The notes under the pieces are model-generated. The model did not search any database and was not told where the DNA came from. It worked only from the letters and a program-made list of their open reading frames with translations. A stretch of 64,000 nucleotides of DNA from positions 62,001 to 126,000 of the forward strand of contig JAFQOG010000028.1 in assembly GCA_017420755.1 (NCBI GenBank), in the 5' to 3' direction. A program made the position numbers and the translations under genes. The DNA comes from Clostridia bacterium (GTDB lineage: Bacteria > Bacillota > Clostridia > Oscillospirales > CAG-272). Every line of letters starts with the position of its first letter. The first letter of the stretch is position 1. This document shows, piece after piece, positions 32,840-63,588 of the stretch.

Positions 32840-32988
32840 AATTTTCGCAGGGTAAAAAGAAAAATCTTTTCTCGGGAAAGCATAAATATCCACACCGAAA
32901 AAAGATTTATTAACTATAAAATTATATAAATTCTTCCTCGGCAGGGAGCATAAATGCAATTACCGTAACCTGCTGTCTTTGGATTAGC
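32840..32988 (-). ncRNA. L10-leader regulatory RNA
   Basis: The 5' untranslated region of rplJ on the minus strand has the hallmark of the L10 leader family: AAAGACAGCAGGT near the start (about 32960-32979), the partner CCCTGCCGAGGA about 40 bases later, and a long stem before the ribosome site. In this family L10-(L12)4 binds the leader and lowers rplJ-rplL expression. Confidence 0.85.
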
Positions 32989-32994
32989 CTCAAC

Positions 32995-33023
32995 ATTATA
33001 GCATAGTGAAAATGCTTTGTCAA
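32995..33023 (-). promoter_or_regulatory. consensus promoter of rplJ-rplL
   Basis: TTGACA (33018-33023), 17 bp, TATAAT (32995-33000), read on the minus strand. Perfect consensus, expected for ribosomal genes. Confidence 0.95.
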
Positions 33024-58337: not shown

Positions 58338-58721
58338 ATGAAAAAGAACTTTGAATCCCTTTATGAAAACCTCGGAGGAACCTACCGCGAGGAAAACGGA
58401 TACCTTATACCCGATATTGCACTTCCCGAACAGACCGACTATCAAATCGGTAAGTATGGACGGATGCACCTTGACTACATAAAGCAGCACCGTCGCGGAA
58501 GGTACACAATTCTGCTGACCGAAGGCAAGTTAAACAATCGGTTGCACGAAATCGACCTTGAAGCAAATGAGCTGATTGAAAGCATCATCCCCCGTCTTGC
58601 CGCCGAAAGAGGTGTTGACGAGGACTTGAAAGCCCGCGATATGCTCCGTTGGGTTGCCGAGATGAATAACATCAAGGTAAGCGCGGAAGAAATCGTTTTG
58701 CGGGAGGTGATCTGCGGATGA
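58338..58721 (+). CDS. TnpV-family transposon-encoded protein
   Basis: 127 residues from ATG 58338, preceded by GGAGG. The family pattern is DIALPEQTDYQIGKYGRMH, DYIKQHRRGRYTILLTEGKL and EANELIESIIPRLAAERGV. TnpV is a passenger of Tn4451-like and related clostridial elements; its job is unknown. Codons ending in C or G are commoner here than in the neighbours, which suggests transfer. No TnpX-type recombinase is nearby. Confidence 0.9.
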   Translation: MKKNFESLYENLGGTYREENGYLIPDIALPEQTDYQIGKYGRMHLDYIKQHRRGRYTILLTEGKLNNRLHEIDLEANELIESIIPRLAAERGVDEDLKARDMLRWVAEMNNIKVSAEEIVLREVICG

Positions 58722-58984
58722 TGTCAATCCTGCAAGAACTGTGGCGTGGAAACATCTGCCCTCAAACCGATAGTCGCAACCACTCTCCCGAAATGAAGGA
58801 GCTTATGGAATATATGGCGCGGCATCACGACGACCTACTCAAAACAATGACCGACGATCAAAAGGAAATCTTTGAAAAGTTAGACGATTGTTGGAGCGAG
58901 TATGCGAGCTATGCCGAAGAAGCCATCTTTACATACGCTTTCAAACTCGGTATGCAAATAGCCATTAAAACACTAACCGAATAA
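58718..58984 (+). CDS. DUF6809-like small protein downstream of TnpV
   Basis: 88 residues: a helical protein with SILQELWRGNICP at the start and a C-terminal YASYAEEAIFTYAFKLGMQI. This small family is usually found directly after TnpV, as here, where the start overlaps the TnpV stop by four bases. GGGAGGTG lies ahead. Function unknown. Confidence 0.82.
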   Translation: MMSILQELWRGNICPQTDSRNHSPEMKELMEYMARHHDDLLKTMTDDQKEIFEKLDDCWSEYASYAEEAIFTYAFKLGMQIAIKTLTE

Positions 58985-60593: not shown

Positions 60594-60622
60594 TTGATTT
60601 ATTCATAAAAATGTGGTATAAT
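60594..60622 (+). promoter_or_regulatory. promoter of the structured RNA
   Basis: TTGATT (60594-60599), 17 bp, TATAAT (60617-60622). The predicted start, about 60628-60630, coincides with the first base of the closing stem of the RNA. Confidence 0.8.
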
Positions 60623-60627
60623 AATAA

Positions 60628-60823
60628 CGCTAAACCAACTTAATAAGTAAAAAAGACACCTATTTTTTACGGGGATACTATACCCTTTTTGTCTTTTACA
60701 TAGTGAATTTGATAAAAATGCAAATTCCGCTTGTAAAAGACAGGGTGATCTTGTTATTTCAAGTTGGTTTAGCGACTTGGAGTTTGCGTTTTTTGTGCGT
60801 TGGCTCCGGTCAACGCACTTTTT
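60628..60823 (+). ncRNA. structured RNA (riboswitch-like or independent ncRNA) with own promoter and terminator
   Basis: P1 is a perfect 14-bp closing stem, 60628-60641 with 60761-60774. Inside are a hairpin GTAAAAAA/TTTTTTAC (60647-60654 with 60663-60670), a small GGG/CCC hairpin (60671-60685) and a stem GTCTTTTAC/GTAAAAGAC (60691-60699 with 60733-60741) capped by GAATTTG/CAAATTC. The first hairpin loop holds CACCT (60657-60661), which can pair with GGGTG (60743-60747) in the junction as a pseudoknot. An intrinsic terminator ends it. No known riboswitch family was recognised. A lipoprotein gene follows 19 bases later. Confidence 0.65.
60795..60823 (+). terminator. intrinsic terminator of the structured RNA
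   Basis: GTGCGTTG/CAACGCAC stem, loop GCTCCGGT, five T. TTGGAG (60777-60782) can pair with CTCCGG (60804-60809), a possible competing fold. Confidence 0.88.
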
Positions 60824-60841
60824 AATTTTGGAGGCAATATT

Positions 60842-62304: not shown

Positions 62305-63588
62305 ATGGCATATATTGAGTCTGAAAAGTTAGAATTAAAGGTACAATATACAACCGAAATCAAAAAAGAAATCGTTGCTTTTTTGAACAGTGACGGTGGC
62401 ACTTTGATTATTGGCGTTGACGATGACGGTAAGGTTATTGGTGTAGATAATGCAAAAGATATTATAGAACGAATTTCCCTTATGATACACGAAGCAATCA
62501 AGCCTGACGCTTCTCTAATTTGCAGTGCGGGAGAATATGAAGAAGAAGGAAAAACCATTGTCAAAGTTGCTATTGGCAGAGGTGTAAAGAAGCCGTACTA
62601 TATTTATGAAAAGGGGTTGAAGCCGAGTGGCGTATATCTCCGTATCAATAATACATCGCAGCAAGCATCCGAGTACGCTATCAAGCAAATGATTATCGCA
62701 AGCGAGGATAAGTCGTTCGAATCTTTGCCAAGCGTTGATCAAGATCTAACTTTTGATTATCTTGAAAGCGTTTTCAAACGTGCAAAAATCGAGCTGAAGC
62801 AAAAAACTCTTGGACTCTTAGACGCAAACGGAAGTTATACCAATCTTGCCTTACTTTTGTCAGATCAATGTCCTTTCTCTATCAAAGCTGCGGTATTTGA
62901 TAGTGACGATAAGAGCAGATTTTTAGACCGAAAAGAGTTTGAAGGCTCGCTTATCCGTCAAGCCGACGAGGTTTATGAGTACCTTAATTTGAATAATAAA
63001 ACTCGCGGCGAATATAACGGATTGCTCCGTGAGGACAAGACGGAATACAATCAGCTTGTTTTGCGTGAAGGACTTCTGAACGCTATCATTCACAGAGATT
63101 ACTCGCTTAACGGCAGCATCCTCATTAGTATTTACAAAAACCGTATCGAATACGTGTCCATCGGTGGCTTGGTATCGGGAATGACCTATGAGGATATGAT
63201 GCTCGGAGTTTCACGTTCAAGAAATGAAAAGCTTGCTAACGTGTTCTTCAAGCTCAAATACGTTGAAGCATACGGCACCGGCATTGAAAAAATACAAGGC
63301 GATTACGAGCATACGGGGCTTGAACCTCGCTTTGAGGTATCGGACAACGGATTCCTTTTGGTTTTGCCTAACAAGACGTATATGGAAGAATCCAAGAAAA
63401 TCCGTACCGACAAAGAGCTTGTCTATGATTTTATTGCCAAATGCGGCAGAGCCACTCGCGCAGAAGTGCAAGAAGAATTGGGCTTTAAGCTGACGAAAAC
63501 ACGAAATATTCTATTACAACTGGAACAGGAAGGCAAGATTGAACGCCACGGAAATGGAAAAGCGATATTTTATATCGTTAGCAAATAA
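62305..63588 (+). CDS. AlbA_2-domain ATP-binding protein, putative transcription regulator
   Basis: 427 residues. The N-terminal Schlafen-AlbA_2 fold has KKEIVAFLNSDGGTLIIGVD and the middle a GHKL-like ATPase with LREGLLNAIIHRDYS and IEYVSIGGL. The C-terminus (about 360-427) is a winged helix, TRAEVQEELGFKLTKTRNIL. Such proteins are annotated as DNA-binding regulators and are frequent in mobile or defence regions. GAAAGGA before the ATG. Function in this strain unknown. Confidence 0.9.
   Translation: MAYIESEKLELKVQYTTEIKKEIVAFLNSDGGTLIIGVDDDGKVIGVDNAKDIIERISLMIHEAIKPDASLICSAGEYEEEGKTIVKVAIGRGVKKPYYIYEKGLKPSGVYLRINNTSQQASEYAIKQMIIASEDKSFESLPSVDQDLTFDYLESVFKRAKIELKQKTLGLLDANGSYTNLALLLSDQCPFSIKAAVFDSDDKSRFLDRKEFEGSLIRQADEVYEYLNLNNKTRGEYNGLLREDKTEYNQLVLREGLLNAIIHRDYSLNGSILISIYKNRIEYVSIGGLVSGMTYEDMMLGVSRSRNEKLANVFFKLKYVEAYGTGIEKIQGDYEHTGLEPRFEVSDNGFLLVLPNKTYMEESKKIRTDKELVYDFIAKCGRATRAEVQEELGFKLTKTRNILLQLEQEGKIERHGNGKAIFYIVSK

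Follow-up and report, generated by a model that had tools for sequence, protein, structure and literature searches.

A putative class of pseudoknotted attenuation leader RNAs upstream of accessory genes in gut Clostridia, with a body that seems to be exchanged between loci

In Clostridia, the c-di-GMP-I riboswitch (GEMM, RF01051) is present in many dispersed copies before surface-protein genes. The 6S RNA is a long rod, provided with a promoter and a terminator and similar in size to the RNA reported here; the raiA motif, or ModT RNA, is also of similar size. The latter is a structured and conserved RNA of Bacillota, according to PMC11706538, and candidates for mobile or repeat sequences, with multiple copies per genome, are treated in PMC11109978. 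In the open-licence PMC literature that was covered, including passages of PMC8040213, PMC11109978 and PMC8632094, the present RNA is not named, and it may be an unnamed entry in the supplementary motif lists of PMC8040213.

The RNA lies in a stretch of 64,000 nucleotides of the genome of a Clostridia bacterium, the whole of which is called the window in what follows. It is like attenuating riboswitch leaders in its position between promoter and ribosome binding site, in a rod closed by a stem (P1) at the start site, in its terminator (T2), its pseudoknot and its many targets, but it matches no Rfam family, T2 stands apart from P1 and from the pseudoknot, the targets are very mixed and the body appears to be exchanged between loci. 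Dispersed copies before surface-protein genes are shared with c-di-GMP-I, whereas the RNA in the window has no RF01051 match; a search with this model found none in the own genome, but none in any control genome either. From the raiA motif it differs by the lack of an Rfam match and by multiple copies before unrelated genes, and from 6S RNA again by the lack of a match, by its copy number, by a start codon close behind and by a conserved tail pseudoknot. It has multiple copies in common with the mobile or repeat candidates of PMC11109978, but here the orientation before genes is consistent, the promoter spacing is fixed and the unit contains no transposase gene.

An undescribed structured RNA with a terminator before a lipoprotein gene had been proposed from the letters of the window, and it has held up: no Rfam 15 family reaches its gathering score at 60594-60841 (the top sub-threshold score, 16.3 bits, compares with a gathering score of 94, and E-values are 0.73-5.1), relatives exist and their stems covary. 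A search of 20 relative loci at E 0.05 returned only tRNAs. Judged by folding against shuffled sequences, the structured RNA is real, with a minimum free energy of -79.9 kcal/mol (z = -7.53) that none of 200 shuffles equalled. The fold recovers the perfect 14-bp closing stem of the sequence-only reading (Table 1). P2 is nested in P1 and encloses a weak GGGG/CCCT hairpin and a long P3-H arm, and the bases 60642-60644 are unpaired, while the last two of AATAA (60642-60646) open P2. The overall shape, as predicted, is that of a rod bearing a single weak side hairpin and not the four-way-junction-like fold with three hairpins seen at first. The pairing of CACCT (60657-60661) with GGGTG (60743-60747), which had been taken for a pseudoknot, exists but is nested within P2. 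A pseudoknot was rightly expected, yet it is another one, formed by the apical loop strand B and the 3' tail D, outside P1, which in the window copy can form 16 contiguous pairs (-18.9 kcal/mol).

Table 1. Features of the RNA and its surroundings in the window.
Feature	Positions	Strand	Basis or remark
Sigma-70 type promoter: -35 TTGATT, 17-nt spacer, -10 TATAAT, TG before -10	60594..60622	+	
P1, 5' strand	60628..60641	+	pairs with 60761-60774; perfect 14-bp stem
AATAA, conserved, 3' of P1 5' strand	60642..60646	+	alignment A1 and predicted fold
P2, 5' strand, three segments, includes CACCT	60645..60661	+	pairs with 60743-60759; predicted fold
GGGGATACTATACCCTTTTT box of the long class: weak hairpin and U tract	60671..60690	+	alignment and predicted fold
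P3, 5' strand	60690..60700	+	pairs with 60732-60742; predicted fold
Apical hairpin H, GAATTTGATAAAAATGCAAATTCCG	60705..60729	+	alignment and predicted fold
Pseudoknot strand B	60714..60729	+	pairs with tail D; predicted duplex and family evidence
P3, 3' strand	60732..60742	+	predicted fold
P2, 3' strand, includes GGGTG	60743..60759	+	predicted fold
P1, 3' strand	60761..60774	+	predicted fold
Tail D, TGGAGTTTGCGTTTTT, U tract at its end	60778..60793	+	pseudoknot partner of B; predicted duplex and family evidence
Terminator T2, 10-bp stem GTGCGTTGGC/GTCAACGCAC, then TTTTT	60795..60823	+	predicted
Ribosome binding site GGAGG	60830..60834	+	sequence
Lipoprotein-like ORF, 434 aa	60842..62146	+	signal-peptide-like start, cysteine after VSLVA

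The promoter, terminator, ribosome binding site and lipoprotein-like ORF that had been read from the sequence could all be located. The promoter agrees with the consensus at 10 of 12 positions; since shuffles would be expected to contain 1.7 such sites and the stretch has one, this is weak evidence by itself. Its -10 element ends at 60622, and the transcription start should be at or beside the first base of P1, as had been proposed. The reading frame that starts from ATG 60842 is also listed with an upstream TTG start; lipoprotein-signal matches in a profile search were weak and below the cut-off, and for the C-terminal region the 28 other genomes of the genus yielded a single weak match.

A second copy, 70% identical, turned up in the own genome by DNA search, and more in the genus and the order. 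Two covariance models were made, R1 on 20 copies and R2 for a shorter class of the RNA. With the own genome included, R1 found the RNA in 21 of 29 genomes sampled within the genus and, within the order, in 80 of 295; with R2 the count for the order is 99 of 295. What looks like a new class of pseudoknotted leaders would thus be carried by about one in three of the order's sampled genomes. R2 counts five copies in the own genome, and there are up to ten matches in others. A phylum sample of 398 genomes was searched with R2 alone under strict filters (E 1e-4), and none of the 397 besides the own genome matched; at least five of these 397 are members of the order. A 24-base pattern combining the end of P1 and the tail occurs in at least 119 stretches of named records, whose titles, among the matches listed, are those of Clostridia or other Bacillota, mostly MAGs, and many of the names refer to gut samples; among them are Pumilibacter intestinalis and Candidatus Protoclostridium gallicola. 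Transcript mapping looks feasible, since a named strain record, P. intestinalis CLA-AA-M10, carries the RNA (locus L214). A few titles (Roseburia, Ruminococcus, Lachnospiraceae), taken at face value, point to more than one order. R1 scores 118 of the 119 stretches (80/80 and 38/39), L202 being the exception. Viral contigs contain no match to the pattern, and a phage origin was dismissed on this count, with the long class alone sought. From a first hit set 83 of 119 were kept, after removal of mirror-strand hits, which the palindromic fold produces, and of L049, which is the same place as L026; from a second, 78 of 93 were kept, the losses being 11 mirror hits and four cut by contig ends. The 161 kept copies lean to the long class, because they were mainly found with R1 or with its tail pattern.

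Counted from P1 through the tail, the length is about 156-195 nt in long copies (259 in one) and 118-155 nt in short ones. The features common to them are P1, usually followed by AATA, the rod, an apical loop made of an A-run and about ten bases (B) and, 3' of P1, a short linker and the tail D, made of about ten bases and a U-run; long copies usually carry an extra GGGGATAYTATACCCTTTTT-like box in the 5' strand. A TATAAT-like -10 element, with at most one mismatch, is found within 16 nt 5' of P1 in 142 of the 161 copies, at a distance of 6 nt in 128; with one mismatch allowed, it is present in 140 of 158 copies versus 35 of 158 in a control stretch farther upstream. Of the 159 copies scored for T2, 155 have a stem of 6 bp or more lying no farther than 3 nt from the U run. 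In an alignment of 23 short copies, 121 cells were changed on both sides of a pair versus 41 in shuffles, and none of 500 shuffles reached 121, with a structure folded from the same sequences and four tails shifted by MAFFT; the whole structure outperforms all 500 shuffles and all slid versions by every measure. Double changes affect 12 of 14 pairs of P1, 13 of 14 of P2/P3 and 4 of 15 of the pseudoknot, and are also found in P1 in the 20-copy alignment of R1. A conserved structured domain with covariation, as expected of a riboswitch, is present.

The pairing of B with D is conserved in the family, and it covaries in the short class. The long duplex between D and the loop is found in 35 copies (23 short, 12 long), also where the letters differ, and it looks alike, by eye, in divergent copies before Cys-rich genes. 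In the 23 short copies, the duplex of each tail with its own loop has -16.8 kcal/mol versus -14.1 with swapped partners, a difference reached in none of 5000 permutations; the same test on 60 long copies, whose sequences hardly vary, was not significant (357/5000). In the long class, the lengths of the A-run and the U-run correlate (r 0.35; 1/5000 permutations). This coupling is clear for GAT loops, with 5 A and 6 U in 37 of 63 and 4 A and 5 U in 16 of 63, and is not seen for GGT loops, where a U-run of 5 goes with 4 A (15/33) or 5 A (18/33). The release of B costs a median of 5-8 kcal/mol and the B/D duplex yields 17-19, and the balance is below -3 kcal/mol in 153 of 161 copies, comprising all 24 short ones and 129 of the 137 long ones, while the other 8 long ones miss this value; all these figures are free of any pseudoknot penalty or geometry. 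In the short class B is free to change partners, because the 5' arm of the loop hairpin has two possible partners, B and the 3' arm of the rod. A leader peptide from an AUG in H was discarded as an explanation, several copies having ACGC or GCGC there by eye.

An ORF follows in 143 of the 161 copies, in 136 with a ribosome site and at a median of 24.5 nt from the terminator; the other 18 have no nearby ORF, and some of these stand at contig ends or before another copy. A ribosome site and a start within 45 nt are found behind 101 of 154 copies versus 4 of 153 on the divergent side, taken as control, which by sequence places the RNA as a 5' leader, the position of a riboswitch. As ribosome site and start usually come about 10-45 nt after T2, there is little room for a further promoter. 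Distinct downstream ORFs of 60 aa or more number 133, of which 117 were scanned with Pfam and gave BspA-type repeats (LRR_5) in 17, zinc ribbons in 9, AMP-binding enzymes in 4, MazE-like domains in 3 and, once each, a methylase, a glycosyltransferase and an ABC transporter; no pathway common to these 117 was seen. Lipobox-like starts were counted in 37 of 136 ORFs and, in a rough control with chance frames among its members, in 63 of 868 ORF-like background segments. In gut Clostridia these leaders appear to control surface and accessory genes that are poorly understood. A family of small Cys-rich proteins (MSKN family) gave 28 matches, which fall on 27 places; three of these places are contig ends, and at all 24 assessable ones the RNA is upstream, in 17 by the model (E <= 0.015; one, L244, with an ORF between) and in 7 by eye (one, L254, shortened). 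One member tested has no Pfam or NCBIfam match. The Cys-rich family (CLGNGEQGFECCCDECDYYLLCFPEF; loci L236-L263) includes 13 matches in a single genome, G027. Linkage to AMP-ligase genes was considered and given up, the RNA being present at only 2 of the best 30 loci of AMP-ligase homologues.

In 23 overlapping pairs of copies the RNAs are 88-98% identical, while promoter, upstream DNA and gene are mostly unrelated. These pairs are not independent: a single group of four short copies accounts for six of them, and several long copies occur more than once. Similarity above the 99th percentile of random pairs was reached by 1 of 22 in the upstream stretch -140..-81, by 4 of 23 in the promoter (-40..-1), by 15 of 23 in the first 25 bases of P1, by 6 of 23 at +33..+60 behind the terminator and by 4 of 22 in the gene (+121..+200). 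In some pairs, such as L191/L127 (94%) and L032/L138 (97%), the latter with a different T2 as well, similarity begins at the first P1 base or no more than 3 nt from it; in others, such as L147/L148 and L010/L001, it already begins in the -10 or -35 region. L010 is also the closest copy to the window, with 94% RNA identity and a different ORF start, seen for about 20 nt before the contig ends. Since near-identical copies stand before unrelated genes, the RNA seems to spread on its own; what moves or recombines as a unit seems, to judge by these alignments, to be the transcribed body, and recombination between dispersed copies accounts most simply for shared bodies with unrelated flanks. A body nearly unchanged between unrelated promoters and genes would be a concrete case for the spread of regulatory RNAs. 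Two to four RNAs, each having its own promoter and terminator, stand in tandem at L239 (four in a row), L275, L282, L285, L126, L138, L013 and L114, and by eye some of the copies (L239, L285) are parted only by a truncated gene start.

At a few loci foreign sequence starts inside the T2 loop, after CTTC: at position 1614 of L022 and 1663 of L026 it is, by eye, a TnpV-like element, and on the minus strand of L103 its ORF resembles, again by eye, a large serine recombinase. Four copies at contig ends of one genome (L266, L267, L268 and L272 of G177) have one repeated sequence behind the T2 loop. We infer that such foreign DNA is an insertion; the right half of T2 is absent from the stretches examined.

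Taken together, these observations make it rather probable that the RNA belongs to an undescribed class of cis-acting transcription-attenuation leaders of accessory genes (lipoproteins, BspA-type repeats, zinc ribbons) in gut Clostridia, with a body exchanged between loci, and the leader probably decides whether transcription goes on into the downstream gene. Transcription would start at the first base of P1, P1-P2-P3 form the rod and T2, a strong terminator, follows D at once; most transcripts would end at T2, or already at the U tract of D once B has captured D, and the usual product would be a stable RNA of about 190 nt. The downstream gene would be made only when the polymerase reads through, and the choice of B between hairpin H and tail D, set by a ligand, a protein or a folding-rate signal, would tune this read-through, while exchange of the RNA body, by recombination between copies or by copying, would bring many accessory genes under the same control. 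No classical antiterminator is visible, because neither P1 nor the pseudoknot reaches into T2, and the family shows no conserved alternative pairing by which T2 would be opened; as for an expression platform, B can pair in H or with D, T2 lies outside both, and a hairpin between the 3' strand of P1 (P1') and the linker is weak and class-dependent. This mini-hairpin has -3.2 kcal/mol when matched versus -2.6 mismatched and -3.0 with a shuffled linker, and the matched form beats the permutations in the long class (0/5000) but not in the short class (3574/5000). Among the copies listed it is strong only in L010 (-9.9 kcal/mol) and in the window, where P1', the linker and GGAG of the tail (60756-60783) can form an alternative hairpin of -11.2 kcal/mol. 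A conserved antiterminator of P1' and linker was rejected, the hairpin being weak and class-dependent.

The same architecture would suit a metabolite riboswitch for a signalling molecule that controls surface proteins, as those of the c-di-GMP class do; the compact, pseudoknotted fold, the common surface or secreted genes downstream, with LRR_5 in 17 of the 117 scanned ORFs, and the excess of lipobox-like starts over the rough control with its chance frames speak for it, but zinc-ribbon, AMP-ligase, MazE/AbrB-like and methylase genes follow the RNA too, the phylum sample has no match outside the order and no ligand pocket is identifiable, and we regard this assignment as possible though doubtful. 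The sequence-only reading had left the choice between a riboswitch-like cis architecture and a free-standing ncRNA, and the spacing to the start codon favours the former, while tandem copies without an intact gene between them and the want of a conserved pairing that opens the terminator do not. A free-standing RNA, acting in trans or binding a protein, with the adjacent gene carried along or expressed by leakage, would explain that the transcription unit is complete, with its 5' end paired and a strong terminator behind, as well as the tandem copies with no intact gene between them (L239, L275, L282, L285) and the 18 copies that have no nearby ORF, some at contig ends or before another copy; we hold it to be unlikely, as the close ribosome site and start are so much commoner behind the RNA than on its divergent side, and the own-partner pairing of B and D in the short class argues for action within one molecule. 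For general control of read-through by the NusG paralogue LoaP, which suppresses terminators downstream of RNA hairpins, this role is the one point in favour; the LoaP model exceeded its cut-off in just 2 of 295 genomes of the order (G309, G095), neither among the RNA-positive ones, and this factor was rejected as barely credible.

The exchange of bodies could also mean that the RNA is a small mobile repeat, MITE-like or of the ssDNA-hairpin kind, whose fold serves the mobility of DNA and whose regulatory look is incidental. The 23 pairs are near-identical copies in unrelated DNA, such as transposable repeats leave, and matches of up to ten per genome, tandem arrays and mobile DNA that ends in the T2 loop fit with it; against it stand the fixed promoter spacing and the leader position in most copies, the own-partner RNA pairing in the short class, and the fact that neither outer inverted repeats nor a constant target at the 5' junction were apparent by eye, without a statistic, which together make it very improbable. 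A further reading is a self-spreading leader, the body of which, from start site to tail, would be mobile through copying of the transcript or targeted exchange and would capture accessory genes under one pseudoknot-controlled attenuator, a bold proposal that we consider quite unlikely.

Further elements were noted in the window. A protein with Schlafen AlbA_2 and RecG-C-terminal-like regions is encoded at 62305-63588, downstream of the lipoprotein-like gene. TnpV and DUF6809 ORFs lie at 58338-58984, 1.6 kb upstream of the RNA, and are by eye the same pair as in the T2 elements of L022 and L026. On the minus strand, at 32850-33000, an ordinary ribosomal protein L10 leader (RF00557) was detected with 54.5 bits.
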